A stretch of DNA of 64,000 bases from NCBI GenBank assembly GCA_029931535.1, contig JAQPZY010001692.1, forward strand, positions 2,209,001-2,273,000, read 5' to 3'. The stretch's first letter is position 1, and every line of letters begins with the position of its first letter. The position numbers and the translations under genes were made by a program. Below the pieces are notes generated by a model. The model was not told the origin of the DNA. It saw only the letters and a list, made by a program, of their open reading frames with translations, and did not search any database. Shown one piece after another: positions 36,265-54,800 of this stretch. This DNA comes from Margaritifera margaritifera (taxonomy: Eukaryota; Mollusca; Bivalvia; Unionida; Margaritiferidae).

Positions 36265-36620
36265 AGTAGTAATGTGGGGCGATCTGGGAAGAAAAAAGGA
36301 AATGAATATCACGCCCGTAGGTTTGCACGTATGGGTCGGTCTGCGTGGACAATGGGAGTTTAACATGAGATTCCCCACTATCCTTCTAAATCTAAGAACA
36401 TATGGGTCTGTCTGGGGAAAATAGAAATTTAACATTACGTCTTCATGTTGAAAAAATGTATAAGGGCAAACGGGAAACGTAATGTAATACAGTTATCTCC
36501 TATCCAATATCTTTTGATCAACTATCCAACATTCCACACGTACTCTCCAATATCCCACATTTACTATCCAACACACAGTATGTAGTGACCTATACCCCAC
36601 AGATACTATCTAACGAAAGG
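36265..36620 (+). repeat. Polinton left terminal inverted repeat
   Basis: AGTAGTAATGTGGGG, ACGCCCGTAGGTTTGCACG, TTTAACATGAGATTCCCC, AAAAAATGTATAAGGGC and ACTATCCAACA match, in order, the reverse complement of the right end (52,945 back to 52,555). The repeat includes the short terminal minisatellite (36,490-36,615). Similarity continues inward to the histone-type stem-loop at 36,842. Confidence 0.85.
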
Positions 36621-36810
36621 GCAGGATTTAAAAGAAGGAGAATGAAATCACACACTATCACAAACAAGCAAGTGTAGGAGTGTTTATAAACACAGTATAC
36701 CCACAAACACACAATCACACAAGAGGGGTTAAAGTTTTATTTTTAAAAACATATGTTATGAATAGATATAGTTATACAGAAACATACAAACACATATTGA
36801 CAACGATTTG

Positions 36811-36857
36811 GTAGTATCTCTGTTTCTAAGTGGTTTGTGTTGCCCTGAAAAGGGTCG
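36811..36857 (-). terminator. Histone-type 3' stem-loop 1 and downstream element
   Basis: Minus strand: GACCCTTTTCAGGGCA (36,857-36,842). The four upper base pairs and the UUUC loop match the histone stem-loop; the two lowest pairs are mismatched. About 14 nt downstream comes AGAAACAGAGATACTACC, the same purine-rich element that follows the other three stem-loops. It begins 25 nt after the stop codon of the small gene at 36,882-37,112. Confidence 0.65.
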
Positions 36858-36881
36858 TAAGGGTGGGTTAACCAATGAGGG

Positions 36882-37112
36882 TTAACACAAGTGCCACCGC
36901 TTCACAGTTCTTCTCCGCAAGCTTCGCCTTACAGCCGGTCCATAGAGTAATACTCTCTTGATGCATCCTTGTCTTCCCACATAGACTCTTCTCTTCTAAA
37001 TAGCGGTGTCTGTAATGTATGTGACTACCCACGTTGCCTTGACATACATGGAGTAATCTGGATTAAACAGCACGCTAGAAATGATGGTGGAGGATTCGAC
37101 GCTTGTCCACAT
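36882..37112 (-). pseudogene. Small basic Polinton gene with histone-type 3' end
   Basis: One frame of 77 codons from ATG (37,112) to TAA (36,882), interrupted by a single TAG at codon 39. The second half is very basic (GRQGCIKRVLLYGP, then RRSLRRRTVKRWH), as in virion core or DNA-condensing proteins such as adenovirus protein X; that role is inference. A TATATATAG box (37,169-37,161) and a CCAAT box (37,196-37,192) lie upstream, and a histone-type stem-loop lies 25 nt past the stop. It reads leftwards towards the terminus. Confidence 0.5.
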
Positions 37113-37160
37113 CTTGTCGGATTGTCTTGAGCACAGGTGACACAATGGGTGAATGCACCT

Positions 37161-37262
37161 CTATATATAGTCTAGGACCAGATCGAAACTGATTGGGAAG
37201 TTCCACAAATCAGAACGCATGTAACATAATTCAGTCAGGGCGTGTTTCCTATTTTCCAATCA
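37161..37262. promoter_or_regulatory. Divergent promoter region with CCAAT boxes
   Basis: Minus strand: CCAATCAG (about 37,196) followed by TATATATAG (37,169). Plus strand: CCAATCAG at 37,257-37,264 facing the Thr/Ala-rich gene side. The arrangement recalls divergent histone gene pairs. A TTATAAGA (about 37,731) closer to the plus-strand ATG may be that gene's own TATA box. Confidence 0.4.
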
Positions 37263-37682
37263 GACTACAGCGGGTATACCCACGAGCGTTCATACGATGT
37301 ACCATTGCTGAAGAGTTTAAGTATAATACACATGGCTGAAATGAAGTCGATGTATTGGGGTGCCCGTGCAGTGAATAGTTCTTATACCCGGAGTGACAGT
37401 ATGACTACTGCTGTTGTTACGAGTATTCTTCCAGATAAAAATGATTTCAATTTGACTTTGTGCGACTTTTTTGTATCTTCGCAAGAATTTTTTCTGGTAG
37501 TACCACCTTCACTCCTTCTCTCTCTATCATTACCAGTATACAATGATTTCAGAAAAGAAAGAAAAAGAGAAGGAAGAGTTATAGAGGGATTTTTTTGCAG
37601 CGTCAGAAAGAAGACAAACCATTTGTTCAACAACAAGAACAACAAGAGGAAAAAAAGAAAGCAACAAGAAGAGAAGAGCTAA
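37242..37682 (+). CDS. Uncertain open frame, 146 codons
   Basis: Open from MFPIFQSDYSGYTHER to a Lys/Asn-rich end (NKNNKRKKRKQQ). It lies between the divergent promoter and the small Thr/Ala-rich gene. No recognisable domain; the low-complexity end could be chance. Confidence 0.2.
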   Translation: MFPIFQSDYSGYTHERSYDVPLLKSLSIIHMAEMKSMYWGARAVNSSYTRSDSMTTAVVTSILPDKNDFNLTLCDFFVSSQEFFLVVPPSLLLSLSLPVYNDFRKERKREGRVIEGFFCSVRKKTNHLFNNKNNKRKKRKQQEEKS

Positions 37683-37762
37683 ACTTTGAACAGTGAGAAG
37701 AAGGAAAAGAGTGAAAACAAAACGGTTAGTCTGTTATAAGACATCTTCGCGGAGTTAAGTAC

Positions 37763-37963
37763 TTGAAAGAAATGTATCAAACTTCTTTGGCGAAACCTAA
37801 GAGAAAGAGACCTTTACGATCCAAGACTTCATTGACAATATCAACGTTCACCACCACTGAGACAACAGCTGCGGCAGCAGTCACTACTACGACTACCACA
37901 GCAGGAGTAGGACTTACACGAGGAAAATGTTTAAGACTGTTGCAGCTGATGTTGCAAAGTTAA
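37763..37963 (+). CDS. Small Thr/Ala-rich Polinton gene with histone-type 3' end
   Basis: 66 residues: a basic start (AKPKRKRPLRSK), a Thr/Ala-rich middle and a Leu-rich end (LRLLQLMLQS). The stop at 37,961-37,963 lies 33 nt before a histone-type stem-loop, the same spacing class as the other three small genes. A TTATAAGA box lies about 30 nt upstream of the ATG. The protein resembles small basic virion or DNA-binding proteins only in composition. Intact as read. Confidence 0.45.
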   Translation: MKEMYQTSLAKPKRKRPLRSKTSLTISTFTTTETTAAAAVTTTTTTAGVGLTRGKCLRLLQLMLQS

Positions 37964-37996
37964 AAAGCTTTTGGGTTTTTTTCTTCAAAACCCAAC

Positions 37997-38046
37997 TGCC
38001 CTTTTAAGCTCCACCCAAGTCTCTCAGAAAAGAGATACTACTCAAA
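37997..38046 (+). terminator. Histone-type 3' stem-loop 2 (decayed) and downstream element
   Basis: TGCCCTTTTAAGCTCCACC matches the histone consensus 5' side, loop and CACC tail, with two changes in the 3' stem. It is followed 13 nt later by CAGAAAAGAGATACTACTC (38,025-38,043), the best histone-downstream-element-like version of the four. Confidence 0.6.
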
Positions 38047-38086
38047 TGATTGCCAAATCAAACAAAACTAAAATCCCTCCATTATA

Positions 38087-38258
38087 GTATGTATGTAAGT
38101 ATGTATGTATGTATGTATGTATGTATGTATGTATGTATGTATGTATGTATGTATGTATGTATGTATGTATGTATGTATGTATGTATGTATGTATGTATGT
38201 ATGTATGTATGTATGTATGTATGTATGTATGTATGTACGTATCTATGTATATGTATGT
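38087..38258. repeat. (TATG)n microsatellite
   Basis: About 40 tetranucleotides directly upstream of the PolB remains. The Met-Tyr-Val-Cys and Thr-Tyr-Ile-His frames are repeat products. Confidence 0.95.
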
Positions 38259-39693
38259 GCCCACTTGTAGACATCTCGTTCGAATGAATAACAAAAAGTC
38301 ACACGTTTGTCAAGGAACGAAAAGATGTTTTTGTGACCAAGTCATCGGGTTGAATCATCAGTGTTACATCCAAAGATATGACAACGAACCCGAAGCAGTT
38401 TTGAATGACGACTAAAAGAAGAAAAAGAAACGTGTGTATTTTATCTTTCTTATCATTGATTGTTAGCAAGAGACTGGAATTCACATTCCTAACTTTTGTA
38501 TAGCTTATCGCGCTTGCAACCAATGAATTCAAGAAACTTTATTTCATCACTGTCGGAATTGTAGCATGATTCCAGGGGGATGTAAAAAATAGTTCGTGGT
38601 TCTCGTACTCTTTGTGATCCCACCGACGACACTTGGCGCGAGGAGGTAAAACGTTACGGGAACTTTCAGCGATAAGCTACAAGTATTGCTCACAATTTCT
38701 CGGGATACGACGGACAAGTTCTTTTGAACTATTGCTCAGAAGAAGGAACCGAATTTCCAACAGTCACCATAAACGGAGCCAAAATCATGCATATGAAAGT
38801 GGGAAACGCACAATTTAAGGACTCAATGAGTCATATAGTTATGCCTTTGAGTAGAATGCCTAAAACGATCGCAATGATATAAATGGCTAAAAGTTATCTT
38901 CCACACTGTTCAATACCGAAGCCAATTAACACAGTGTGCTCCCACATTTGGCTGAAGTTCACTATTACGACCCCCCCCCCCCCCGCCCGATGGAATGGGA
39001 ACAGAACAACAAGAAGCTTTCTACACTTGGTACCAAACCCACTATATAGACCCTTTTGATTTTCAAGAAGAAATGTTTAAATATTGTCCATCCTATGTGG
39101 ACGTTTTACAACGTTGTTGTGGAAACTTTTGACATTTATTATGAATCACGGAGGTATCGATCCCTTGAAGGAAGCTTCTACCATTGCCAAAGAGTGTGGA
39201 TTAATCCACCAAAAGAAGTTCATCCCAGAGAACAGACTAACCATCATGCCACTTCAATCCATTCAAACTGTCAGCCGTCAATATTCAAGCAAAACTTTGC
39301 GCTGGCTACATTACTTCTTTGAAATTCAAGACAAGTGGATACAACATGATATGAATGGTGGAGAAAAGAAGATTGAATCCTTTACCGTGGATGGTTGGGA
39401 TTCAGGAAACCCAAAGATCGCATACGAATTTCTGAGATGTTTATTTCACGGATGCTCTACTTGTTTTCCTCAACGAGAACTGACAAATCCTTTCACAAAG
39501 TTCACCATGAAGAGTTGTACGACCAGAGTTACTATCGACGCCATAGTTTAGAAAGTCAAGGATACCAAATCGTAGAAATGTGGGAACACGACTACGATCG
39601 ACGTTTGAAAATCAGATCCAGAATTTAGACGCATCGTCGACGATTAGGATGGGGTGGACATCAAACATCCAAATCCACGCGATAATTTCTTCG

Positions 39694-40531
39694 TGTTTTG
39701 TATGATGCTTATAATATTTAATATTTGTTTAAACTTTAATGCTAAGTATAATGTTGACTTGTTTAGCTATTGTCCTTGAATTAGGTTGTTTCCTTACTAT
39801 TTGAGTTCAAGGACAATTTTGGTAAACAAGTTGTTGATTCAATTTGAGGTCAGGGTTGATTTTGTTTACAGATAAAACCAGAATTTCCTTAGAGTTTTGT
39901 GTTAAATGTCACGCACACCATTTAATATTCTAAAACATTCTGTCATGTGACTTGTCTTATATTTATACAGCATTTGGTAAACAAGTTTCCATTCCAATTT
40001 TAAATCTTGTATTACAAACATCTGTTTTTATGATCAGTCTTTTGGAATCATCAGATTGTTTGGAATATTCGTTGTGCTGTAATCTTGTAATCCTGTAGTG
40101 CTATAATCTCGTAATGCTGTATTGCTGCATACATAATTCGAAAGGAATTATTTATTGGAACATTAATTAGAGTTACCTAAAGTGCTTACATCAACCTTTG
40201 GATTCAAATATACGACTTTTGGATATCTGTGGACATTCTCAAAGATGATCTGGATTGCATTATTGGGGTACATCAGGACACTCCAGACTACCCATTCATT
40301 CGGAACATTCATTCACTCGGAACATTCATTCACTCAGAACATTCTATATTTAGGACTTGTGAGTAGGAGACTTAGGATTATTGGATTATTTGGATTTTAA
40401 TTCACGTTACTATAAGTGTCTTTAGAATTTTCACTTTAATTGTCTAGAAATAAATTATTTGTTGATTTTAATGACATTGTTGGTTTCATTATCTTTCTGT
40501 TACATTATTTAAAGACCATAGAGTTGTAACA
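39694..40531 (+). mobile_element. LTR-like insertion (about 840 bp) in PolB
   Basis: PolB similarity stops at about 39,693 and resumes at about 40,532. The insert starts TGTTTTGTATGATG and ends TTGTAACA, giving TG...CA ends. It has no coding capacity, carries AATAAA-like signals near its end and resembles the insert at about 56,380-57,252 in its terminal part (TTACATTA...GTAA). Best read as a solo LTR; a clear target duplication was not found. Confidence 0.5.
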
Positions 40532-41313
40532 TTGGAGGACGAACCAGTGCTACACGTTTGTTGTACGAAGTGGACGAATCTCAAGGTGAACAAATCAAAT
40601 ACATCGATGTCTGTTCCTTGTATCCTTGGGTGTGTAAATATGCTGGATTCCCCACCGGTCACCCTGAAAATTCGACAACATATCGACGTGGAACACATTC
40701 GCCAATACGAAGGTTTGATCAAATATAACGTTTTCCTACCGACGAACTTATACCATCCCGTCTTGCCTCATCATTGCACGGAAAACTGATGTTTCCATTA
40801 AACCATACGTTTGCTGAAACATGTAATCAAGAACAGCCTTGTCGCCACGGCGACCAAGAACGCACTTTGACAGGAACGTGTGTGAGTGTGAAATTGTTTC
40901 ATGTTCTCGATCACGGACATCACTTGTTAAAGTATACTAAATTTGGCACTTTATTACCATAGAACAATACCAACAGGACGACGACTCGAGTCTATGGATA
41001 TCTTCAGGCTACGTCAACGAATTTCTGAAATTGAAGCAAGAAGCTAGCGGCTATCCTTCTTGGTGTCACACTCCAGAAAACAAAGATGAATTCAAAGAAC
41101 GGTAGCGATTTGCAGAGGGATGACCTTGGAACACGTCAAGAGGAACGAAGGAAGACAATCGTTTGCTAAAGTAATGCTGAATTGTTTGTGGGAAAAAGTG
41201 GCTAAACCTCCGATATTGCCAAAGACTGATTAATTGGTATATTCAAGTCGATACTTTCAAGTCATGGACGATAAAGGAAAACTCATTAAACACAAGGAAA
41301 TCTTTGTGAATTA

Positions 41314-41524
41314 GCAAGAAGTAAGATTTGGTTATACACGGCGGCCAGTATATTTGGTGGGGGAAGAACCCGGGAATAAACACCGACCCACGGGAAGCTA
41401 CTGGCAAGCTTTCTCACATACAACCGTTGGTCGATCTGAGACTCGAACTCACGCGGATAGATGTGAGATGTGTGAGTGATCTGTAAAGGCGAAAGCCTTA
41501 GACCACTCGTTCACCCGGGGCTCA
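41314..41524 (-). mobile_element. tRNA-derived SINE in PolB
   Basis: On the minus strand the element begins GCCCCGGGTGAACGAGTGG with box A (GTGGTCTAAGGC) and box B (GAGTTCGAGTCTC, + coordinates 41,438-41,450), as in a Leu/Ser tRNA. A conserved body follows (TTGCCAGTAGCTTCCC, CCGGGTTCTTCC on the minus strand). A 7-bp duplication TGAATTA (41,307-41,313 and 41,525-41,531) flanks it, and the PolB frame resumes right after. Confidence 0.75.
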
Positions 41525-42049
41525 TGAATTACGAATAGGTCGCAGAGTTTGCACCACCCGATGAGTTTGGTAATGTCATCATTGCTGTTTACGTGACAGC
41601 CAAAGCCCATTTTCAAAATTGTATTGTCTTGGAACCTTTAGGAGATCGAGTCCTTTATTTTGACACCAATAGTTGCATGTACATCGGTCGCCCTGGAGGC
41701 TATCACCCACACATCGAAGACGAACATCCCGAATGCGCTATTTTGAGTTTTACCAGTGGTGGACCTAAAAATGACGGCTACCAGTACCGAGACAAAAAGA
41801 ACAACTTCATACCAAATGTAAAGTAAAAGGACTGACTTTACTATTGTTCCAGTCAAGTGGTAAATTTTGACGTCTTAAAAAAGCCTTAAAGTCAGGTCAA
41901 GATCAAGACTTTTGCGTTACCACGTTGGATCCTCACAAAATTGTACGCTTTTCAGATCACCAAATCGTTAGTCGACCAGACGTGAGTGCCACTTCCCGAT
42001 CACAACACGTTACTTTACGGGTACCGAGCGCCAATTAAAAAAGGAGAGA

Positions 42050-43200
42050 GTTCCAATACAGAAAGATAATTATGAGTACAAACGCTCACCGAGAATGATG
42101 CATTAGACATAGACACAGTGTGATGGACCCACCAATTCCAAGTTGTGATGTGAAACTTCACGAATGGGAGTATAAACATACAGCTTTCCTTGAACATTCT
42201 AGATTGTCTCCGTGCTGTCACTACCTTCCTTTGGTACGTCTAAAATATGATCCTCGTGGTGGATACTTTAGAAGGGAGGATTCGTAGTTTACCTTTGAAG
42301 CTGCGAGAACGCATTTGAAGAGAGTTTGCCAAGAATCAAGTGAAACGCATAGAACAATTGCATCCGAAATGGTATAGACCTTTTAATCACTGGTATATGA
42401 ATACCACGAAAAGACTGATTCGTTTAAAAATGTTCAAATGGTCAGATATTGATAAACTGCGAACACTTTATAAAGCTTGCCATGCCAGGGCTTCTGTCAT
42501 CAGTGTTACACCAAATTCCGAGGGAAGAAGTCATTGACAGCTAAAATGATCCCGTGTTGGATACTTTAGAAGAGGAGAGGATTGGTCGTTTACCTGTGCA
42601 AATGTGAAAGCGCATTTACCACTTCTTTGTACATATACAAGTACAAAGAACATTTACATCCAAAACAACATAAACTGAATAACAATTGGTATATGAATGC
42701 CGTAAAAAGATTGATCGAAGATGGCTGTAGCATAGTCGGAAAGAGAGGTTTTGTGCCAACACACGATAAGTCTCTTCTGCAAAAACGTTATAAGACTTAC
42801 CATGCCACGACTTCTGTCATCATTGGTGCACCAAATTCCGTGGGAAGAAGTCAATGACACCGTTCAAGACTTAGTGGATTACAAAGTACTTTTAAAAGAA
42901 CTGATTTAACAAAACAAAATAGTTGTTTTGAATTTTGGACGATGTGTCGTGTGTGTGTGTTAGTGACTGCATTTCTTGGATTTCGTTTACCAGCAGATTC
43001 TTTGCGGCAAATTTATGAACAGTACATGTAAAGACACGACAGCCAAAACTTTATCTGTGCACGAAAAACTCACTGCGTTAAAGTGTTGCGATTAGTGATG
43101 AATACGACTTCTGTACCCCCGTGTGAGGAAGACATTTCGCGTACCTTATCTACTCTTCATGCTTACCAAGAAATATGTAAAGCAAGTTGGATACGCCAAC
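42050..43200 (+). pseudogene. Unknown Polinton ORF region with internal duplication
   Basis: Between PolB and the ATPase. A frame near 42,120 reads SVMDPPIPSCDVKLHEWEY. Then two copies of one segment follow: 42,240-42,540 and 42,545-42,860, both running from GGATACTTTAGAAG through a (H)PK..(H)..N(H/N)WYMN block and ending TCTGTCATCA/CACCAAATTCCG. A further piece at 43,100-43,220 (CEEDISRTLSTLHAYQEICKA) is mostly helical. No family recognised. Confidence 0.4.
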
Positions 43201-43204
43201 AGAT

Positions 43205-43440
43205 TTTACGACTGGAAGGGTAAGTAACTGGAAAAGTCTTGGATTCGATTGCTCCAAAACAAGAGGTGACCGACTATGCCAAATACATTTTGTGTGACCG
43301 ATGAAATAAAGAAAAACATAAACTTTGTGTTTTTAAATGAAAATATTTTTGTTGTTGTTACACCATGACAAAATGAAAGTGTATAAAATGCAGAAAATGT
43401 CCAGTGTAGGTGACGGAATCTCAGAATTCCAAACATGAAA
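43205..43440 (-). other. Polinton spacer conserved with relic 1
   Basis: The reverse complement matches 1,740-1,940 (TTCATGGTRYAAC, AAAGTTYATGTTTTTCTT, CATCRGTCACAC, GAATCCAAGACTTTT). It is also the single-copy source of the unit amplified at 31.9-32.2 kb. Non-coding; conservation may reflect shared descent only. Confidence 0.6.
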
Positions 43441-43479
43441 GTTTTGGCTGCATCCTCCGTTCCCAAAGTAATTGACGAA

Positions 43480-44200
43480 AAGTCAGATTGTCAAAGTTAG
43501 GAGGCACTGTATCTTCGCCATCCCTTTAACACGCTCATTGCTTGACATATTAACACGCTCATTGCTTGACCTAGTGGTTCAGGCAAACCGAATTCATTAA
43601 ACATTTTATTCAACGCAAATCACTTTTGTTCGATCGTACTGCACAACGTATCGTGTTGTGTTACAAAGAGTGGCAATCATCTAATACGTGACTTAATCCA
43701 AGTCAAAGATAATGCGTTTTGTTTGTAGAAGGAATTCGTCGCGAAGACGATGGGATCGTGTTTGACTTTAGTGAAACACATCTCGTTATCTCCAATGACA
43801 CGTTACAAGAAGACAAAGAAGAAATTTGACTTAGGTTTACCTGAAAAGTAGCGTATTATAAACATTACTCAAAGTTTATTTCAACAAAGTAAAACGCATC
43901 GTACCATCAGTCTAATTGCTTATTATGTCGTGTTATTTAAAAGTCCAAGAAATAAATCTCAAGTTCAAGTATTGGCCAAACAGATATGAACGCCTTGATT
44001 GAATTATGCTTATAACGATGCCACTCAATTGCCACATGCATATTTAATCATTGATTTGAAACCTACCACTCCCGATTGTTTGAGATTTCGTACGAATTTG
44101 TTTCACGATTGGTGTCAAGAAGGAGGTCCAGTCATTTACACGTCGCCTTCCTCGTTTTCGTATGTCTAGAAAACAATTACTACAAAGACATAATTCATTT
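43480..44200 (+). pseudogene. Polinton packaging ATPase, decayed and 3'-truncated
   Basis: The plus-strand Walker A region near 43,570 retains PSGSGK with a stop directly before it, then RKSLLFDRTAQRIVLCYKEW. A C-terminal block near 44,030 reads ATQLPHAYLIIDLKP and CLRFRTNLFHDW. A 24-bp tandem duplication (CACGCTCATTGCTTGAC, 43,533-43,580) disrupts the start of the P-loop. Similarity to the copies at 863-1,708 and 21.7-22.0 kb ends at about 44,200, where an inversion begins. Confidence 0.75.
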
Positions 44201-44330
44201 CGATAGCTCGTGTAACCATTGACGTACATCTTGCAGACGTAAACTTTTGAGTGTCTTATTCATGCACAACACAAAGTTTTAATTACTCCGTAGCCAGCGG
44301 CATGAGCAGCATTGTAGTAAATCCTGGCTA
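44190..44330 (-). pseudogene. Polinton integrase N-terminal fragment (inverted)
   Basis: Minus strand from ATG at about 44,341: MDTPLARIYYNAAHAAGYG, then a TGA, then SKVYVCKMYVNGYTSYR. This is the N-terminal DNA-binding part typical of Polinton integrases. It ends at the left breakpoint of the inversion; the catalytic core lies 1.7 kb away on the other strand. Confidence 0.6.
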
Positions 44331-44771
44331 AAGGTGTATCCATATTGTTGCTACTCCTCAATAAATCACCCACTGTTCGATACTCCTCTTAGGTTGTTCG
44401 TGTGGTATTTATTTGGATTGTGATGCTTGACGTGTCTGACGAGTAATAGGAGAAGAAGTCGTCATTGGTTGTTTAGTCATTTTTTTCTAGATTTTTTATT
44501 CATTTCTGTCTTCCCTTTTTTCTTTGTTTCTTCTGCTGAAGAGGGCGTCGACATCATCTTTTTGACCCATACTTTAATGTCTTATCGTCTGGTAGTAGGG
44601 GAAGGTATCAACAAGGTTGTCACACTGGAGAGAAAAGGAGCAGACTGAGTTTAAAACGCTTCTCTTTTTTCTTTCTTTTCTTCCATCCCCGTCGCTGTGC
44701 CTGTCATTGTCTTTGCTGCTTTTTGTTTTTCTTCGCTTTTCATGACATTCTTGAAATCTCTAAGAGTAGGT

Positions 44772-44972
44772 TTAGCCGTCTCGTCTAAAGCTTTCTGATG
44801 AAACAGTTAAGTTGAAGACGTTGCAATAGTTATCCATGCCGTTGCGATTTTTCCGTTTCTGATAAATCTGTTTCCAGAAAAGTGTGTGCTTTTTTCTTCT
44901 TCTTAATCTCATCACTTCTCCTAAAAGAGGTCCAGCAATCGATCCTAACAAAGGAGCAGCCAATTTTAACAA
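44772..44972 (-). pseudogene. Small Polinton ORF with hydrophobic Gly-rich N-terminus
   Basis: 66 codons starting MLKLAAPLLGSIAGPLLGEV followed by a basic stretch (RLRRRKK). The amphipathic Ala/Gly/Leu start next to a basic segment is like the short minor capsid or membrane-active peptides of Polintons and adenoviruses; the role is inferred. More minus-strand Lys/Ser-rich coding lies at 44,650-44,450. Confidence 0.45.
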
Positions 44973-45410
44973 CGTCCTATCAGTATGGGTATAAATCCCC
45001 CTGGTTGATCGAGCACTTATTTATTTTGGCTGATTGGCATTTCATTTTTTATCATTTATCGAAGATCGTGACGACGTCGTCCTAACTGATGTGTCTGTAT
45101 CTTGATCAAAAGCGTCGTTCCTTTCAAAACATTAAAACAATATTCACACTGTATCGATGATATCTGTAGGTGCTTAATGAATGATTTGTTTTCGTATCGG
45201 GGCATTGGATTTGGTAAGTACTGACAAAACATCCGAATGTTTAGCTAAGCGAGGAAGAAGACCCTTTTTTCCTCTTATGGAAGGTCTATTTGGTGGTAAT
45301 GATAATGGGTTGAACTTTGTGACATCTTTGTTCAGGAGGAAAACCTGAAGTCAATCTTATCCAATATATCTTTTTTATAATGGAATTCATCTCCACTGAT
45401 TGTCGGGACA

Positions 45411-45638
45411 TCATATCAACTTGACTTTAGGAACTACAGGTGTTTTCATTGGCCTAAATCTTGCCTGTTCTGTCTTCCACTTTTTCTTAGGAGATGCCAC
45501 TCTTTTTGCTGCAGCAGCAACAGCTAGAGCAGTAGAAGAAGACGTCGACAGAGTAGAAGTTTCATTAGAGATGGGTTTCCTTTTTTTCATCAGACTGGAA
45601 ATCATTGGTCTTAAATCAGATTTAGCTGGCATCATCAT
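45411..45638 (-). pseudogene. Polinton minor ORF (Ser/Thr/Ala-rich, basic tail)
   Basis: 75 codons starting MMMPAKSDLRPMISSLMKKR, a Ser/Thr/Ala-rich centre, then AKRVASPKKK and MKTPVVPKVK. Homologous to the ORF at 251-69. Conservation of both ends between copies supports a real element gene, probably a minor virion or DNA-binding protein. The plus-strand frame is a shadow. Confidence 0.5.
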
Positions 45639-45974
45639 TAACCAATAAGTGAAAGGAGAGACTGTCAGCGATTGAGGCTTTCGTGAGTACTTGCGTGTTC
45701 TAGAGGCAGTACCTCTCTTTCTTGAAGGTGTTGTTTTTACTTAGGTTTTCTATTCTTGTTAGAGTGTGAACTTGCTGCACCTCTTTCCTTTTTTTGTCTG
45801 TCGTTTAGGTTTTGCTTTTTAAATTTTAGGATTAGGATCCCATCGTAGAAGCGAACGAATAATGACCCCCCCCCAAAAAAAAAAAAAAAAAGATCCACTT
45901 CCAGCTGGTTTCAGACTGGTTTGTTTTTTGGGTTGAGTATCGGTTCCTGGATCAGACAGTTGTGACAAAACTAA

Positions 45975-46888
45975 TTTATGTTTTCACGTTACACAAACAT
46001 ATTTGATGACAATTTTATAGAAGTCAAACCAGCCAATGTCTCTCATTTAGCGTCGTACAACCGAGGTTACAAATATTTGTTTTGTGTCATTGATGTGTTT
46101 TCAAAATTGGCTTGGGTGGTTCCTTTGACTTCCAAAACAAATACAGAGTTAGTGCTAGCTTTAAAACTTGTCTTGAAACAAAGTGGTTGACATATTCTGC
46201 GATGGTAAACAAAGACAACGAATTTCTTAACCAAGCCTTTCAAAAACAATTGAAGAAACGACTCATTCATTTTTTTTTCACCACTGACAATCCTGAAACG
46301 AAAGCTAGTATCGATGAACGTTTTCAAAGAACTTTGAAAAAACGTATGTGGAAATATTTTATACATCAACATACTCTCAAATACAGTGATGTGTTACCAC
46401 GTCTAGTCGAAACTTACAATCAATTGTATCATCATAGCGTCCGATGTGCTCCAGAAGAAGTGACACCTCAAAACCAAGTGATTGTATTTGATTGACTGTT
46501 TGGAACGTCGAAAGCCAGAAAAAAGAAAGAAGTGTTAAACACCGGAGATTGGGTTCGCATTGGGAAAAGAAAACAGATTTTTAACAAAGATCATTTACCC
46601 AACTGGAAGTCAGAATTGTTTCGTGTCACAGGACAAGTGCATGGACGTGATCCTCCTGTCTATAAATTGGAAGATATAAACGGAGAAGTGTTAAAAGAAA
46701 CTTTTACTTGCCAGAGTTACAACGAATGACTAAGAAAGAAGACGACGTATACGATATCGAAAGCATGCACGATCGAAGAATACGTAAAGTGGGAACAGAT
46801 CGACTCCAAAAAGTGAAAGTTCGTTGGAAAGGATATCCACCTAGTTTCAATTCCTTGGATTGCAGCTGCAGAAGTCATCAACTATAAA
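45975..46888 (+). pseudogene. Polinton integrase core, SH3-like domain and chromodomain
   Basis: Retroviral-type (rve) DDE integrase. The core starts DDNFIEVKPANVSHL with NRGYKYLFCVIDVFSKLAWVV. A frameshift follows, then KASIDERFQRTLKKRMWKYF with the catalytic Glu, ending at TGA 46,494. The SH3-like domain follows at 46,532-46,729 (GDWVRIGKRKQIFNKDH; PPVYKLEDINGEVL), then a chromodomain at 46,738-46,888 (KVRWKGYPPSFNS). The N-terminal domain is separated by the inversion. Integration into the host genome was its role; the copy is inactive. Confidence 0.85.
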
Positions 46889-47164
46889 TAGAAGTAGAAG
46901 TCACGACTATGCCGTTGAACACTACTGAATCTCCTTCTCAGTATTTATCTCCCCAAGAACTATAAAAACAACCACTGTTTGTGTGGCGTGGAGAACGCGT
47001 CCTTAAAAATCAAATTGTCTTTTTCTGCCAGATCTTTGTGGTACATTGTGTGGAAATGCGATTGGAAATTTGAGCCTGCAACAAGGAGATAAACAATTGC
47101 AACTATTTTACTCAGCTATTATATTGGCTGCTAGTATCTTCTCCCTAATCGCTTGCTGAAATAT

Positions 47165-48075
47165 ACCGGCAATCAATTTTATTTAACATTACCTAGTGAC
47201 AGTTCTATGGATGTGTTTCCCGACAACAAATTATGTTGTTTCACGGCCAAATTTACCTGAGTTCATACAATTGTATCACGAAGATTATTGGGAAGTAGCT
47301 TTGATAGAAATCATCCATCCTACTCAAGTCTGGATTGTGGCTTTAGATCAAACCACTTTTCTCGTCGAAATATTCAACGAACAAGTGCAAGAACACTTGG
47401 ACAGAAATGATTCTGTCTATTACGAATCCACACATGCATCACCAGCAAGTCCCCAATGGAATATATATTCCATGAGAATTCCTACAGGATTTTATTTCAG
47501 TGCTTGACATCTTGTCGATACGATTTCAGCTATTTCAAACGATCGTTTTGGCAAAGCACTGGATAAAACTCGCAGAAGTGTACTGATCAACTACCAATGA
47601 ATTTTTCATCGTCTCAAACTCAATTTTTCCAACTTCAAAACGCTGTCCATCCTTTTTTTCTCCCAGTTTCTTTGCTATCTTGGGTAAAAATACGAACATA
47701 ACACCTCAGTCAAATGACACCACCAACAACTTTTGATTATACAAGTATTTTCGTTACCCTATCAAATTGAAGAAAGGACTAAATTTGATGTATGTGTACT
47801 CTGATATCGTCGATTACTACACCGTAGGAAACTCTGCTGCTCTGTTGCCGAGAGTCGTTCCTTTCAAAGTGGATTCTGCCATAGCTGCTTACGATGAAGG
47901 AGGAAATTGGTATCACGTTCACCGAGAATTTGTACATCCTCATTTTTTTACTGTCAGTAAATAGTATTTTGACAGTGTCAATATTAGTATAAATGGAGAT
48001 CTTGGAGAAAATATTTTATTCTCTAAAGTAAAAGTAATTGTGAAACTACATTTTCTTAACAGATGTATCCTGTGT
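47165..48075 (+). pseudogene. Polinton minor capsid (penton) protein, decayed
   Basis: The N-terminus FYLTLPSDSSMDVFPDNK near 47,175 and the WEVALIEIIHPTQVW block (47,290) are family signatures. The second half near 47,785 reads LNLMYVYSDIVDYYTVGNSA with LLPRVVPF and ends in a jelly-roll-like stretch (VKVIVKLHFL). It would form the capsid vertices. There are stops at about 47,250 and 47,506 and shifts between the halves. Confidence 0.75.
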
Positions 48076-48460
48076 AGAGAGAAGTAGCTCTACAAGGAGG
48101 ACATGGTTTGGAAGATACGTTAAAATTGGCTCTCCGTACCCGTAGCACAAATTTTGAACCGTTAAAAGATGTAGTTTTGGTGCAAGGAAAGGAATTTCTC
48201 CAAAACGTACTCATCAACTAACAAAGTCCCAAACACACCTTGATGAAAGCAGGAAACAATGTGTTGATTCATACCACAAAAGAACTCATGGGTCGCCGAG
48301 TCACCCCTATAAAATCACTTCACACTCCTGGCGAAGGCATTAATTCCTCCCTACGCCACAGTAAGGACAAGACAGAAAGAGACGTCAAAAACCCTTCATA
48401 CCTAATAGATTCGATCAGAAAAAGAATAAGAAAAGAAGAACAGCAGTCAGGGAATTAGAC
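48063..48460 (+). pseudogene. Polinton pVI-like minor capsid protein, decayed
   Basis: Begins MYPV, stop, REVALQGGHGLEDTLKL, continues through KDVVLVQGKEFLQNVL, then a stop, then LMKAGNNVLIHTTKELMG and a basic tail (DSIRKRIRKEEQQ). Position directly upstream of the major capsid gene, a Gly-containing start and a basic end fit the pVI/PX type minor capsid protein. Assignment rests on order and general features. Confidence 0.5.
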
Positions 48461-48488
48461 GTCTTTGATTACTTAAAAAAGAAAAACG

Positions 48489-49595
48489 ATGCACCGAGAT
48501 TCTTGTGAATGTTCCAAGTCAGAACTTGATCTGTTTTCCATACCACAGACAATGATAAGGATGCAATAATCCCAATGGGTAGCGAAGTGGATTTGTCTTT
48601 GAACAACAAACTAGTCAGCAGCAGCATGGATACTTACCCTTACAGAGTGTACCTGGAAAATCTCTTGACGTACGGAAAAACCAAGAACACAAATCTGGAT
48701 GCATCAGTGGTGTAGACAACTGACACGCTGAACAAGTTCAACACAGCATTGATTGAGGATAATGATGCAGACCACACTATTTGGTTTAACGACTGACAAA
48801 AGAAAATCAAACAAGGACGTAGTTTAGAATGATGGAACGTTTACACTTGGACATGTGGTTGCAAGACAAGTATTTGTTGAAAGGGGTCGATGTTCGTCTG
48901 AGACTAAATCGAGGTAGTACTGAGTTCCATTTAATGGCTAATACTTACGAGTACAAAACGACCATCGAAGAAGCCAGACTTTGCGTGTGGAAGTCTTACC
49001 TAAAGTGGGAAACTACATCAGTCAAACTCTGAACAGAACAACAGCCAAGGATCCTCTACGACGAGCGGAAGTCAAAACCTTCACCATTACCTCTGGACTC
49101 CGATCCAAGATAGAAAATTATGTTTTCCAAGGTCAACTGCGAAAACGTTTGCCCATTGGCGTCGTCATTAATGCAACCTTCAGCGGAACTATCGATCAAA
49201 ATCCATTCGTGTTCCAACATTTGAACGTGTCCAAGATAGAAGTCATCCAAGATGGCCAGACATTGTTTACCAGACCCTTTGAACCTAACTTTACCCAGAA
49301 AAGTTGCTTGAGATCTTACTTGACTCTGTTTGAAGCCACAGGAAAATTAGGAACCAACAGTAGCTAGGGCATATCGTATGATGATTATGCAGAAGGATAT
49401 GCTTTGTGAGAATTTGATTTCACTCTAGACCAAGGCAGCGACGAGGAATATTTCCTCCCTATAAAATCAGGCCAACTCCGTGTGGAACTTCAGTTTGCAC
49501 TGACTCTGGTGAAAACAATGAACGTAATCTTGTATGCAGATTTCGATAATACTCTGGAAATCAACAGTTTGAGAGAAGTGATCCTAGACTATTAA
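48489..49595 (+). pseudogene. Polinton major capsid protein (double jelly-roll), decayed
   Basis: Starts MHRDSCECSKSELDLFSIP, the family's typical start. It then runs over shifted frames: NNKLVSSSMDTYPYRVYLEN (about 48,605), LTYGKTKN, a central LHLDMWLQDKYLLKGVDV (48,840), and a long open C-terminal half to 49,367 (VLPKVGNYISQTLN, NPFVFQHLNVSKIEVIQDG), ending ILDY at 49,595. It would build hexon-like capsomers. About 370 codons remain, with at least four breaks. It supports Polintons as capsid-forming elements, but this copy cannot make a protein. Confidence 0.85.
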
Positions 49596-49600
49596 AAAGA

Positions 49601-50110
49601 TGGAACACGATCCCATATAGATAGGCGAAGATGATGGTTTCAATCCAGAACAGCAGTTACATACCACAAGTAAATAAGAAGAGAAAGATTCATTCACGTT
49701 ATCACGATGGACAGAACAAGAAAAACACTTAGTCTCCTGTTTTGCTCGTGATTTGGCTGAAAGAATCACACTTATAACCAGAGAACATTGCTATGGTTGA
49801 CGATCATACTAGTCAAAAGCAACATGACAAATGATTGATGATGAGTCAAGAAGAAAAGTTAGAAGAGTATCTGGAAGAAGTATGGATCCTCATTTCAGAA
49901 GAGAAGATCTTCAAAGAGTAGTATAAAGACTTGAGTGACCATTCCCTGCCTCCATTGACTTCTTTGGAAACGAAACGCATCGAAGTTCTCTTGCAACAGA
50001 TTAGGGAGACTTTCCATTCATCGACTTACTTTATAGATCTTTTCATGGAAAAAGTCAAGTGTGAACTCATTACTTATCACTACATGTGAAAAGGAACACC
50101 TGGGAACTTC
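49601..50110 (+). pseudogene. Unknown Polinton ORF(s) after the capsid gene
   Basis: Fragments MEHDPI, stop, GEDDGFNPEQQLHTT, HLVSCFARDLAERI and, in another frame, SQEEKLEEYLEEVWILISEE with RIEVLLQQIRETFHSSTYF. Acidic and helical in character. I do not recognise the family. Confidence 0.35.
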
Positions 50111-50144
50111 AGTTCGTACACAGCTTTTTGAAATCCAGTGGTGT

Positions 50145-50615
50145 GGGCTAAAGATGACCTTCCTCGTCTAAAAACCTAAAGACATTCGACCATATGTCAT
50201 CAACACGGACGACCGTCATCGCCCAGGAACTTATTAGGTAGCCGTCAACTTTCCCATGGATTACCTCTTCTGAAAGACGACATCATCGACTTTATGAGAC
50301 TAAATGCTGTATCCACTCAATTCAATAATGTGAGATTACAAGGATTAAATTCGATTGTGTGAGGACAATATTGTATTTTCTTCATCAACGCAGCAGTCTT
50401 TGATTTCCATTAGAACATGTACTGACTTGTTTTGAACATGATTTCTCTAGAACCCAGGAGAAAATAGAAAGGTGGTTTTGTGAACATTATGGGTATCTAT
50501 TTTCATTAGCACAGAAACGTAGTGTAGGTCGATGGCAAAATGACACTGCACTAGATCATTGGAATTTTAGTCTTACTCCACAACGTTGTCAACTTTGTGA
50601 ATACGTTCATGTTTA
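50145..50615 (+). pseudogene. Polinton adenain-like cysteine protease, decayed
   Basis: Pieces of the adenovirus-type maturation protease: YVINTDDRHRPGTY followed by a stop where the GTHW catalytic His region should be (about 50,190-50,240), then VRLQGLNSIV, a stop, GQYCIFFINA near 50,330-50,385. The stop again replaces a residue of the Q..CG catalytic block. A C-terminal frame ends LTPQRCQLCEYVHV at 50,615. Breaks fall on both catalytic sites. Confidence 0.65.
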
Positions 50616-50899
50616 ATGTTTGGTATTTGTACTTGAAGAGGAAGAGACTAACTCTAAACATCCCTTTTCATATGGTTTTGTTGATGTTTAAGTTAGCTGG
50701 GCTTATTAAAAATGGTGATTTACAAAAAAAAGTGGTGTTGGCTCGTTTTGCTTTTGTTTATTTTTTGGAAAGAAAATAAATTTGTTTGGCATGCTTTTTC
50801 ACATTCTCTGTTGATCTTTAAATTTTTCAAAGAGGATGTCTTCTTTCACGTCCACGTACCGAATTTGAGGGGTGTTTTCCTTAAATCCGTGCTTTTAAC

Positions 50900-50957
50900 A
50901 CATAAAGCGGCGAGTTCACCAGTAGTGCTATCCATCGTTGACTTGTCAACAACCATG
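50900..50957 (+). promoter_or_regulatory. TATA-type promoter of small gene A
   Basis: ACATAAAGCGGCGAG (50,899-50,913) lies about 45 nt upstream of the ATG. The stretch is clearly paralogous to that of gene B (51,666-51,728), which keeps the better TATA. Confidence 0.5.
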
Positions 50958-51097
50958 TCTGCCATTGGTAAATTAAGTGAACCCCTGGTGCACATGCACA
51001 GGGTAAAGCACCACCTGATTCCGAGGAGCTTGGACAAGAAAAGAAACATTTTAATCAAAATGGCACAAAACCTGGTTCAAGGAGTCATACAACAACA

Positions 51098-51128
<31 letters not shown>

Positions 51129-51308
51129 AAATGAGAAAAGAAAAAGAAAGAAGACAACAACATTAGCAGATTAGCAGCGCGAAGAATAGGAATGGAAGGT
51201 GGAGACAGATGAGTCTGATCTTAGGCTCACTGTCTCTTACAAAAAGAAACGACCATGTTGTATTGTGAGATCCAACCCAGGCCTAGTCGTCCAGGATATC
51301 GCCGATAA
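50955..51308 (+). pseudogene. Small basic Polinton gene A with histone-type 3' end
   Basis: ATG at 50,955 (MSAIGKLSEPLVHMHRV), a helical/basic N-terminal part (RSLDKKRNILIKMAQNL), then a poly-A run (51,100-51,124) that shifts the frame, and a C-terminus ending RPSRPGYRR at TAA 51,306-51,308. The stop lies 29 nt before a perfect histone-type stem-loop. Gene B downstream is a paralogue: promoter, C-terminus (PVYR) and 3' region all correspond. Cys and basic residues suggest a nucleic-acid-binding protein; function unknown. Confidence 0.5.
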
Positions 51309-51337
51309 CATCAACGATCCGGAGAACAACAAACAAA

Positions 51338-51388
51338 GGCCCTTTTCAGGGCCAACCCCATCTCTTGTAAAACAGATACTACTCAATC
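51338..51388 (+). terminator. Histone-type 3' stem-loop 3 (perfect) and downstream element
   Basis: AAAGGCCCTTTTCAGGGCCAACC (stem-loop 51,338-51,353) has a 6-bp perfect stem, the UUUC loop and A-rich 5' flank of replication-dependent histone mRNAs. About 14 nt further is AAAACAGATACTACTCAAT (51,369-51,387), the purine-rich element shared by all four sites. On RNA it should bind SLBP; that is inference from the motif. Confidence 0.8.
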
Positions 51389-51665
51389 ACTGCAAATCTG
51401 TGTTTTATGTTTGTGTATGTCTTTGTCTTCCACATACAACTAAAACGTAAACCCCTTCTCCCCCCCCCCCCCTGTGATAGTATGTTTGTGGATATATGAG
51501 TACTCCTTCCCTTGTGTAGCATAAGTATCTCAGTCTCAGTGATAATTGATTTGTGTGAAAAAAGAAGGATGCTTTCTGTTAGGTCCACGTGATTTCTCGT
51601 GACATGTATTCTATTCTCTGTGTGTACTATAGTTGAGATGTTTTTCCTTCACGTCAGTTCTTAAA

Positions 51666-51728
51666 GCATATAAAGCGGTGCGTTTGCCAGTTTTGCATTC
51701 ATTGCTGACTCGTCCACGAAGAAGAATG
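51666..51728 (+). promoter_or_regulatory. Histone-like promoter of small gene B
   Basis: GCATATAAAGCGG (TATAAA at 51,669) followed about 27 nt later by TGCATTCATT (51,694-51,703), which fits the PyCATTCPu cap signal of many histone genes. The ATG is at 51,726. Confidence 0.55.
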
Positions 51729-52218
51729 GTTAGCTATCACTGCCGAGTGGGAACGTTAAGAGAAGCAATGAGTTTATTGGACAGAGTGGAGCACCTCCTG
51801 GGTCGGGTAGAAGAAATGGAGTCATACCCCAATAAGAGGCACATGAAACAACCAAGGCGTTCGTATGAGAAGTTTTGGAGGAGGAAGTGGCGAAAATAAA
51901 GAGGGAGTGAGCGGAAGAAAAAAGGGTACAGAAACAAGAGAGAAGACAATAAATTTCCAGAGACTGAATGAAAACCTGATGAGGGTGAAAGAGAGGCTGC
52001 GATACAGGGAAGAATAGCAGCAACAACAACAATAACAACAACAACAACAACCGCAAGAACTGTCCCTGATTTCTGAAGAGGAGGACTGGAAGATTGAGGT
52101 AAAGGAACTTGATTTTAGGAACAATCTTTTCGTCCGCAGAGCAACAGAGTACTTGTACCAGATGTGCCCTTGTTGCGGAGTCTGGCCAGGAATGTGCAGT
52201 TGTCCTGTATATAGGTAA
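51726..52218 (+). pseudogene. Small Polinton gene B, coiled-coil and Cys motif, histone-type 3' end
   Basis: Starts MVSYHCRVGTLREAMSLL with a heptad-like helix (DRVEHLLGRVEEME), a basic region, a stop at about 51,897, a Gln-coding CAA repeat (52,018-52,051) and a Cys-rich end (CPCCGVWPGMCSC) finishing PVYR at TAA 52,216-52,218. One frameshift and internal stops. Paralogue of gene A. The stop lies 28 nt before stem-loop 4. Possibly a zinc-binding DNA-associated protein; not recognised. Confidence 0.5.
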
Positions 52219-52246
52219 ACGTCAACGATCTAAGGCAACACACAAC

Positions 52247-52297
52247 GGGTCATTTCTGAGCCACGGGATTCACTTAGAAACAGAGCTGCTACTCAAT
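52247..52297 (+). terminator. Histone-type 3' stem-loop 4 and downstream element
   Basis: GGGTCATTTCTGAGCCAC (52,247-52,264). Compared with the histone consensus the loop-closing U-A pair has become A-U, a compensatory change that keeps the stem; one G-G mismatch is present. AGAAACAGAGCTGCTACTC (52,276-52,294) follows at the same spacing as in the other sites. Confidence 0.6.
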
Positions 52298-52554
52298 ATT
52301 TGCCAATATATGTTTGTATGCTTGTGTATGTGTATGTCTGTTAATAAAAAAACTAAAACCTAAACCATTTACCCCTCGTGTGTGATAATGTGTTTGTGGG
52401 TATAGTATGTATATAAACACTCATACCCTTTGGCGTGTGTGATAGTGTGTTTGTGTGTATGTAAGTATTGTGTGTATATAAACACTCCTACAATGTTTAT
52501 GTGTGATAGGGTGTGATTTTATTCCTCTGCTTTTACATTCTATCCTTTTCGTTA

Positions 52555-52945
52555 GATAGTAGGTGTCACTACACGCGGCTTGTTGGATTGTAAATGTGGG
52601 GTACTGGTCACTACATACTGTGTGTTGAATAGTACATGTGGGGTAATGGATAGTATGTGTTGAGTATTTGGAGGTTAGTTCACTTGGTGTTGGATAGTAG
52701 GTAACTAATTTGCATTACATTTTCCGAATGTGTCTCTATACATTTTTTGAACATAACGTAAAGTTAAATTACCATTGTCCCAGACAGATCCACCTGTCTC
52801 TAGATTTCTAGGGACAAGGGGAAATCTCATGTTAAATTGCGGAATTTTAATTTTCCAATATCCCAGATCGACTCATACCTGCAAACATACTGGCGTAATG
52901 TTAACTCCCGTTTGTCCCCAGATACCCCCCCCCCCCCTTACTACT
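52555..52945 (-). repeat. Polinton right terminal inverted repeat
   Basis: Inverted partner of 36,265-36,620 and of similar composition, including the terminal minisatellite (52,555-52,710) and a C13 run next to the tip (52,925-52,937). Ends TTACTACT at 52,945, or three bases later if the third ACT is included. Confidence 0.85.
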
Positions 52946-53310: not shown

Positions 53311-53317
53311 AGATTAT

Positions 53318-54800
53318 TGGAAACCGCACAGATCGTGTATGAAATTGTATCGGTACCTATGACATGGGTATGAAACTTGTTATTTTAACCGAGAATTTCA
53401 AAATCTATATACTGGGTTTTCCATGAAAGATTTGTACGAAAGAACTCCTCAAAGGGGTCGGAACTTAGGAGCCTAAGGATACCGTGTGGTGGAAATGATA
53501 GCACCCTAGAGGAAGAATCGACTTTTGTACAACAACAATAGCAATAATAACAATAAGAAAAGAGAAAAGGAAAATAGAAATGAAGCTGAAGACTGTCAAC
53601 GGTCTACATAGTGACATAGGAGAAAGAATGACTTCGGAAACCGTGTGTGTATTACATCATTGTCAGATTTATTTAGATGAGAGCGTTATATAAAGCATCT
53701 TAAACAAAGCCCAAAAAGAGAAAACCTGCACTTTAAAAAACCCCAGAGAAAACAAAACAAACACAAAAAAATCACCGTCAATTGCAGTTACAAAAACAGC
53801 AACAAGGAGCAAGACCATGTCATTTCACATTGTTCATTTGTTTTTTGATTTTGTTTCCGTTTTTATTTTTATCCTGCATCTCGTGATGTCTGGCAGCGTT
53901 TTTGTTTGAATATGTTTTGGGAAGTGGTGTCTTCTTCCGAATTCTCCTCTGCGACTCCCCATATATATTCATTTTTGTCTCGGGACTGGGACGAAGAAGA
54001 TTAGATCGTTATGGCGCGTTACGGTAACTGTCACAAATACGCTAGAGTGATAGTTCACAATATGTCTGAGTACTGGCTATGCCTCTGAATTAGGTGACCT
54101 TATCGCCTGGACCAGCCGAATTAGCTAAAGGATGTTTTTTTCTCACTTTTGCAGCACACAGCAAGATTAACACATGGTGCTCCACATTATCCTCCCTTAC
54201 GATGCTACGACCCTGACGGTATGCCAGCCGAGCTACATGAGGCTTCTACACATGGTACTGGGTTCACTATTCTGGCAAATTTGACTTTCAACAAGAAATG
54301 CTCAAATAGTACAAGTCCGTTTCTGCATTCTACAACGTATTTAAAAAAAAAAAGATTTCGACCGTGGTTTATCGATTCTTTTGAGGAAGCTTCTATCATC
54401 GCCAAGGCTTGTGAATTTAAGTACATAAAGAATTTCATGCCCGAGAATGCACTAGCTAATATATCAGCATAAATAAAAGAATATGCGAGCAGTACGTATT
54501 CGGCAAAGACTTTGCATTGGTTACATTACTTATAAATGACTCAAGACAAGTGGATGCAACATGCCAAAAATGGCAAAGAGTGTAAGATCTGTCATCACTT
54601 AGTCGATGGTTGAGAGTTGGAAACCTCATAGATCGTGTACGAATTGTATCGGTACCTATGACACGGATATGAAACTTGTTATTTTAACCGAGCAATTAAA
54701 AATCTGTATACTGGTTTTCCATGAAAGATTTGCACGAAAGAACTCCTCAAAGTGGTCGGAACTTAGAAGCCCAAGGATACAGCATGGTGGAAATTTGTGA
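53318..54800. repeat. Direct duplication, 180 bp, 1.3 kb apart
   Basis: 53,318-53,500 and 54,620-54,800 share long exact stretches (ATTGTATCGGTACCTATGAC, GAAACTTGTTATTTTAACCG, AAGAACTCCTCAAA). The first copy is isolated from the rest of PolB. Confidence 0.8.

Follow-up and report, generated by a model that had tools for sequence, protein, structure and literature searches.

Why would small genes at the ends of a virus-like element finish in an RNA hairpin that in animals is otherwise the end signal of histone messages? To our knowledge, histone-type ends are normally confined to histone genes. However, in the window analysed here (the whole 64,000-nucleotide stretch of Margaritifera margaritifera DNA), a decayed Polinton has four small genes near its ends that share a 3′ module composed of a histone stem-loop (SL), ~13 nt, and a purine-rich element (HDE).

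The element is bounded by a left terminal inverted repeat (TIR) at 36265..36832 (minus strand), ~70-77% identical to the right TIR at 52271..52945 (plus strand). Its ends are placed only approximately, and no 6-bp target-site duplication is clear by eye. Between the TIRs, on the plus strand, are a Polinton PolB piece (39303..39455; 45% to the PolB ORF of the distant Polinton contig L003), an integrase core piece (45975..46187; Pfam rve 21.4 bits, under the cut-off of 32.6) and a Polinton major capsid protein (MCP) gene (48489..49592; four aligned pieces with 70-75% amino acid identity to P0001), whose sequence places it in the Polinton family. The MCP, PolB, candidate integrase piece and TIRs, together with an adenain-like protease judged by eye, are common to this element and the mollusc Polinton/Maverick elements (MCP 'F54H12.2-like'); it differs from them in the histone-type 3′ ends of its four small terminal genes. 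The window copy of the element is dead.

Four 3′ modules in the window copy

The terminal genes, G1 to G4, are decayed to different degrees. G1 (36882..37112, minus strand), a small basic gene, has one internal stop in the window copy and, judged by eye, encodes the same protein as an open 77-aa ORF of another locus (L055; MWTSVESS...). G2 is broken, with an upstream piece at 37230-37682 and an open 3′ part with a basic stretch at 37772..37963 (plus strand). G3 (50955..51308, plus strand) has four internal stops in the assigned frame; its ORFs stay open for longer in other copies (110 aa in L027, 109 aa in L041). G4 (51726..52218, plus strand) is a paralogue of G3 with a broken frame, and a search for protein homologues of its C-terminus found none. 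An origin of G1-G4 as histone pseudogenes was considered and rejected; the open pieces of G2-G4 have no histone Pfam match.

The first-pass annotation had placed a module 25-33 nt past the stop of each gene. All four lie within 1 base of the claimed positions, the T1 SL running from 36856 to 36841 on the minus strand, and the stop-to-SL distances, with frames as assigned, are 25 (G1), 33 (G2), 29 (G3) and 28 nt (G4). After G1, the T1 SL (36841..36856, minus strand) has 4/6 pairs left and is followed by an HDE-like element at 36807..36827 (minus strand), within the left TIR. The other three modules are on the plus strand. The T2 site (37997..38012), after G2, has 3/6 pairs left, with the downstream element AGAAAAGAGATACTACTCAA at 38026..38045. 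T3, after G3, consists of the SL GGCCCTTTTCAGGGCC (51338..51353; 6/6 pairs) and a downstream element at 51367..51386. The T4 SL (52247..52262), after G4, has 5/6 pairs, and its downstream element (52276..52296) lies within the right TIR.

The module sequence was recovered at all four sites. In leave-one-out profile searches of the 64-kb window, each module was the top non-training match, with E-values of 4.8e-9 (T1), 4.3e-8 (T2), 8.1e-7 (T3) and 8.8e-9 (T4). Searching the window with the pattern GGCYCTTTTCAGRGCC, allowing up to 3 mismatches, gave 4 matches versus 0.48 expected. T3 matched with 0 mismatches, T1 with 2 and T4 with 3, while T2 has more than 3; the fourth match, at 6562, is unrelated. 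Identity among the four modules is 0.67 for the SL, 0.57 for the spacer and 0.80 for the HDE, versus 0.33 and 0.41 for the ungapped flanks.

The four claimed stem-loop sites are thus confirmed, with corrections to their pairing: T3 is the only perfect SL of the window copy, and T1, T2 and T4 are damaged. RF00032 detected T3 at 30.0 bits (E 6.4e-6), under the Rfam cut-off of 34, and gave no match to T1, T2 or T4 up to E 10. Folding was clearly better than that of shuffled sequences for T3 only (2/200, versus 13/200 for T1, 37/200 for T4 and 117/200 for T2), and T2 forms no hairpin (-0.1 kcal/mol). As claimed, T4 shows compensatory change, with two double changes relative to T3, but one pair is broken; at least two compensatory pairs would arise from five random substitutions with P = 0.008. 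The four modules do not count as independent cases, as the downstream elements of T1 and T4 fall within the TIRs and G3 and G4 are paralogues.

Further copies and a second family

The module is found in other copies of the element in the same genome, at frequencies that are biased toward intact copies because the copies were picked by T3/T2 similarity or RF00032 score: its sequence is present in 39/39 other fetched copies of the G3 (T3) end and in 9/9 of the T2 end, where six pairs are kept in 6/9. A second, T4-type module was matched in 15 of the 39 T3-copy loci. Among the 12 of these 15 in which we examined pairing (L019, L029 and L049 were left out), 2 have six pairs, 6 have five, 3 have four and 1 has three. 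Within the T3 copy set, conservation of the adjoining flanks (0.73-0.83) comes close to that of the module (0.82-0.84).

On the window's own genome, 75/75 scored RF00032 matches were over the cut-off. We fetched 30 of these, hereafter family B. No histone ORF lies within 1.5 kb of any of them, a warning that in genomes of this kind an RF00032 match is not necessarily the sign of a histone gene; histone tblastn on the 30 loci gave no match (best E 4.3), and five family B ORFs had no histone Pfam match. In 22 of the 30 loci, an ORF of at least 49 aa ends no more than 150 nt before the SL; the other 8 have none. The stop-to-SL distance among these 22 is 16-24 nt in 16, 32 nt in three, and 66, 100 and 110 nt in one each. 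All 30 loci, which were selected by RF00032, have six SL pairs. One 20-kb element, C72, has capsid inside one end and PolB inside the other (DNA_pol_B_2 in two pieces, one over the cut-off; in C169 this domain scores 25.5 bits, just under 25.8). C72 has four six-pair SLs, two at each end. The inner SLs were not part of the locus selection, and one of them includes a G-U pair. At each end, the outer module is part of an inverted 185-nt stretch, 97% identical between the two ends.

The first-pass annotation had allowed that intact relatives might lack the stem-loop, or that the genes might be host histone-locus fragments unique to the window copy. Neither is so. RF00032 matches, scoring as high as 45.8 bits and in most cases 16-24 nt past the stop, accompany open-frame genes of family B, and the module is multicopy and occurs in two families on a number of small genes unrelated to one another.

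Comparison of unrelated genes revealed modules that are 87-92% identical next to coding sequence that cannot be aligned. Between two subfamilies of a 180-aa gene, identity is 70% for coding sequence, 92% for the module, 94% for the SL and 89% for the 5′ flank, and between G1-like subfamilies conservation of the module scarcely exceeds that of the coding sequence (0.875 versus 0.839). Covariation across elements was evident for stem switches from C-G to U-A, which scored 0.157 versus 0.062 for shuffles (1/500 as high), but two of five pair measures were no better than shuffles (58/500 and 365/500 as high).

RF00032 gave no match up to E 10 in four distant Polinton contigs from bacterial MAGs (L003-L006), which say little on terminal genes because end repeats were not seen in those contigs. 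With the few search patterns used, IMG/VR yielded no relatives of the MCP piece, the MCP alignments or the L003 PolB, and SL plus HDE had zero exact matches in viral contigs. SL plus AMC matched two contigs only, with phage-like ORFs, and we took these matches as chance.

Match to the host histone genes

The ends of the host H2B, H3 and H4 genes have the same layout as the Polinton modules. Common to the modules and metazoan replication-dependent histone genes (RF00032) are a 6-bp stem, a 4-nt TTTC/TTTA loop, an A-rich 5′ flank and a short distance from the stop; common to the modules and host H2B, H3 and H4 is an HDE core, GAAAAGA, 13-15 nt past the stem. The spacing from SL end to HDE core is 14 nt in 7/9 host histone genes and 13 nt in 2/9, 14 nt in 30/30 family B loci, and, among T3 copies, 15 nt in 25/39, 14 nt in 6 and other or none in 8. 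A distal nGCC follows at 31-33 nt in host genes and 32-38 nt in family B; under the rule applied, it is missing in 12/39 T3 copies. Unlike metazoan histone genes, the Polinton genes encode no histones and belong to a transposon or virus-like element, and their processing is a prediction. Across the whole 60 nt, identity of the module to host histone ends is 0.63-0.83, hardly above random expectation (mean 0.68, 95% value 0.78).

With respect to processing factors, the host has SLBP, identified by two matches to its RNA-binding domain on C413 (64.3 and 38.8 bits) rather than from an assembled gene. No U7 was found: none of 65 scored candidates matched RF00066, with control genomes silent too, and an Sm-site pattern gave 35 matches versus 27 for the reversed control. 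The single recurrent U7 candidate turned out to belong to an interspersed repeat (4 of its 5 places read), and we disregarded its pairing with the HDE.

Proposed use of the signal

A histone-type 3′ signal on Polinton genes is supported, and its use is likely. We consider it probable that the four sites are histone-type 3′-end signals of Polinton messages, which would undergo host SLBP/HDE processing and yield mainly S-phase mRNA without poly(A). We observed the signal and its spacing, its agreement with host histone genes, its occurrence on genes unrelated to each other and at either end of a second Polinton, and the SLBP domain; cleavage, lack of a tail and expression in S phase are inferred. 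The small terminal genes would be transcribed by host RNA polymerase II, the hairpin would be bound by host SLBP, and the purine-rich HDE would recruit the host histone-processing machinery. The pre-mRNA would then be cut just past the hairpin, leaving an mRNA that lacks a poly(A) tail and would be made and kept mainly during the cell's DNA replication; the products of the terminal genes would thus be available when element DNA can be copied. Histone-type hairpin ends on many element copies suggest borrowing of the host's DNA-replication-linked mRNA pathway. On balance, we favour the view that a multicopy Polinton group, some members with open genes, adopted the histone mRNA pathway, so that small terminal-gene proteins are made in S phase from messages without poly(A), matching the copying of element DNA. 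The literature that we searched, including few subscription papers, contains no report of histone stem-loops in Polintons.

It is unlikely that the transcripts are mainly polyadenylated at a downstream AATAAA, with the hairpin contributing stability, export or a back-up. AATAAA does occur 100 nt past the SL at T1 and 81 nt past it at T4, but T2 and T3 have no AATAAA, ATTAAA, AGTAAA or TATAAA within 140 nt. Moreover, C. elegans histone genes have a hairpin, a putative HDE and AATAAA close behind, in the same order as in the Polinton, and these histone mRNAs end after the hairpin despite the AATAAA (PMC1924863).

Less probable again is capture of part of a host histone gene by a Polinton, with spread through duplication and TIR exchange but without use. 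Such a history would fit the T1 and T4 elements in or beside the TIRs, the G3/G4 paralogues and the near-identical outer modules of C72. However, where the module sits on unrelated genes or at an inner position, it retains SL, spacing and HDE, and stem changes are compensated. There is also little identity to host ends apart from SL and HDE core, which is what long upkeep, rather than recent capture, would predict. Least probable is that the repeat works as DNA, as a replication or packaging end signal that resembles a histone hairpin by chance: it does lie near both ends, and in C72 within a stretch repeated at both, but orientation in the window tracks the gene and not the element end (T1, T3 and T4 outward, T2 inward), the position is mostly 16-33 nt past stop codons, and the loop and SL-HDE spacing are as in host histone genes.

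If the Polinton messages do end by histone-type processing, the SLBP/U7 pathway would gain a third participant in the form of a virus-like element, Polintons may be S-phase-timed viruses, and there would be a testable handle on the timing of their activity. Surveys of poly(A)-selected RNA would miss the terminal-gene transcripts.

Promoter similarity between G1 and G2, and of both to G3/G4, was not above shuffles. The divergent G1/G2 promoter region (37164..37262) carries weak, short motifs: TATATATA for G1, and CCAATCAG on each strand (37196 minus, 37256 plus).

Terminal modules of the window Polinton

A decayed Polinton lies at about 36.3–52.9 kb of the window, with diverged terminal inverted repeats (TIRs; 36265–36832 and 52271–52945). 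It retains a PolB piece, an integrase piece scoring below the Pfam cut-off, and capsid gene pieces (48489–49592) with 70–75% amino-acid identity to P0001, a Polinton major capsid protein, whose relatives in Mercenaria, Ostrea and Crassostrea are annotated F54H12.2-like. Two pairs of small genes occupy its ends: G1 (-) and G2 (+) on the PolB side, G3 (+) and G4 (+) on the capsid side. All four genes are broken in this copy, and each is followed 3' by one module (T1–T4, respectively), a histone stem-loop (SL) and then a purine-rich downstream element (HDE). The divergent genes G1 and G2 have between them one CCAATCAG box per strand (37164–37262; short motifs only), a layout like that of divergent histone gene pairs. 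A 172-bp GTAT microsatellite (38087–38258) starts ~40 nt past the T2 downstream element. Further Polinton fragments, similar to the PolB region at 39–41 kb, adjoin the main element (53317–57916 and 25274–26298), and tandem repeats matching part of the Polinton TIR (33266–33786) adjoin a C2H2 zinc-finger-like ORF (34080–34970).

The likeness of the four modules is more than chance. A profile built from any three recovers the fourth in 64 kb (E 4.8e-9 to 8.1e-7), and identity among T1–T4 is 0.67 in the SL and 0.80 in the HDE, versus 0.33 and 0.41 in ungapped flanks. The sites should not be counted as four separate events, since the TIR is common to T1 and T4 and G3 is a paralogue of G4. The first-pass annotation placed a hairpin after every one of these genes. 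T3 is indeed perfect, but T1, T2 and T4 keep only four, three and five pairs, and T2 has no fold here. Against RF00032, the Rfam histone stem-loop model, T3 scores 30 bits, under the family cut-off. Where one compensatory pair change was noted for T4, its stem has two compensatory double changes and one broken pair; given five random substitutions, two or more compensations are expected with P 0.008.

Module copies across the genome

We searched the 2.45-Gb assembly containing the window (C295:2209001–2273000). The T3 query gave 888 candidates, of which 40 were scored, every one of them a match; we fetched the 39 besides the window, and in each G3- or G4-type sequence surrounds the module. Counting at the best site near the expected position, six pairs are kept in 13 of the 39, five in 17, four in six and three in three. 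A second, T4-type module was found in 15 of these loci (pairs kept, for 12 of the 15: six in two, five in six, four in three, three in one). The T2 query gave 1893 candidates, from which we scored 40 and fetched nine copies besides the window; by the same best-site count, six pairs are kept in six, five in one and four in two. Since pairs are kept in these other copies, T2 of the window was probably once a proper hairpin.

Genome-wide, at least 75 RF00032 matches were scored from 508685 candidates, all 75 exceeding the cut-off (best, 45.8 bits), and 30 loci were fetched (family B). One alternative raised at the outset, that the genes are captured fragments of a histone locus, is opposed by these loci: none of the 30 (of 75 scored) has a histone ORF within 1.5 kb of the match, and contigs listed for H4 carry none of the 75. 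In 22 family B loci the stop of an ORF of at least 49 aa lies no more than 150 nt before the hairpin, and none such is found in the other eight; the distance is 16–24 nt in 16, 32 nt in three, and 66, 100 and 110 nt once each. Thirteen hairpin-linked ORFs were written out: eight are one protein (180–240 aa), four are a G1-like protein (63–141 aa; by eye the same as window G1), and that of L063 is an 87-aa protein. Among the 45 matches beyond the 30 fetched, C716:27776 lies ~4 kb from a capsid gene.

Contig C72 presents a Polinton from both ends, with two outward-pointing RF00032 matches 20.1 kb apart. Inside one end are a capsid gene (80% identity to P0001 residues 1–438, in two open pieces) and, by eye, an adenain-type-protease-like ORF; PolB lies inside the opposite end. 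Two hairpins of six pairs, accompanied by an HDE, stand at either end, and one of the four includes a G-U pair; the inner two played no part in locus selection. The ends share two inverted stretches, 185 nt over the outer modules (97%) and 171 nt upstream of the outer genes (95%). The latter (L063, reverse, 1020–1190; L064 773–941) contains TGACGTCA-like sites, plus CATATAAAG in one copy, and by eye resembles the window G3/G4 promoters. A zinc-knuckle (CCHC) gene (Pfam) adjoins PolB in C72 (L084 2648–3196, +), and an ORF on contig C169 is similar to it by eye (L085 2146–2571, +).

Host histone genes and probable upkeep of the signal

The host genome contains an SLBP RNA-binding domain and tandem arrays with H3, H4 and H2B. 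Nine distinct host histone 3' ends carry GGCCCTTTT(C/A/T)AGGGCC followed by an HDE core, at 14 nt in seven and 13 nt in two; a distal nGCC follows at 31 or 33 nt. All 30 family B loci have the HDE at 14 nt, and nGCC is at 32–38. In T3 copies the HDE is at 15 in 25 of 39, at 14 in six, and elsewhere or absent in eight; nGCC is present in 27 of 39 by our rule. Beyond the SL and HDE core, 60-nt identity to host histone ends barely exceeds that of random sequence, an argument that a signal has been kept up and not that a histone tail was recently copied.

The comparisons that follow are limited by the choice of loci, which were picked by similarity or RF00032 score. Between two subfamilies of the 180-aa gene, proteins are ~41% identical and coding sequence 70% (18 comparisons), and identity is 92% in the module, 94% in the SL, 89% in the 5' flank and 75% in the 3' flank. 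Among unrelated genes, modules are 87–92% identical while coding sequence is unalignable. G1-like subfamilies show little contrast (module 0.875 versus coding 0.839), and in T3 copies conservation of the adjacent sequence comes close to that of the module. Across 17 distinct module rows, taken from the window, the host and family B, 94.1% of cells are paired. The covariation score of this set is 0.157 versus 0.062 shuffled (1 of 500 shuffles as high), with two of five measures not beating the shuffles. Four distinct rows show a switch from C-G to U-A, and one a switch from U-A to A-U.

Predicted 3' processing and capsid gene abundance

As described in PMC1924863 and PMC5011920, SLBP binds the hairpin of histone pre-mRNA and U7 snRNP the HDE; the RNA is cut 3' of the hairpin without an added tail, and the mRNA is kept in S phase. 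If this pathway applied to the Polinton modules, by analogy the terminal proteins would be made in replicating cells. AATAAA occurs 81 nt downstream of T4 and 100 nt downstream of T1; in C. elegans it coexists with hairpin-ended histone mRNA (PMC1924863). An interspersed repeat with the U7-like Sm string TCTTTTCCTGGAAAATTTGTCTAG (L109–L112) has no U7 match in Rfam. We found no report of Polintons with histone stem-loops in the literature searched, including passages of PMC8363768 and PMC6210712. Neither the histone 3' pathway nor the Polinton is a new kind of thing; on the evidence of these searches, it is the joining of the two that would be new.

The Polinton capsid gene is very numerous in this genome, with 13282 candidate places. 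All 96 scored are full or nearly full length, and 69 are stop-free. Many have similar scores at 87% identity and no stop, suggesting a recent burst. Polinton capsid genes also occur on four contigs filed as bacterial MAGs (L003, L004, L005 and L006; bins of symbionts of tubeworm and Bathymodiolus, Breoghania and Rickettsiaceae), which are probably animal DNA inside bacterial bins.
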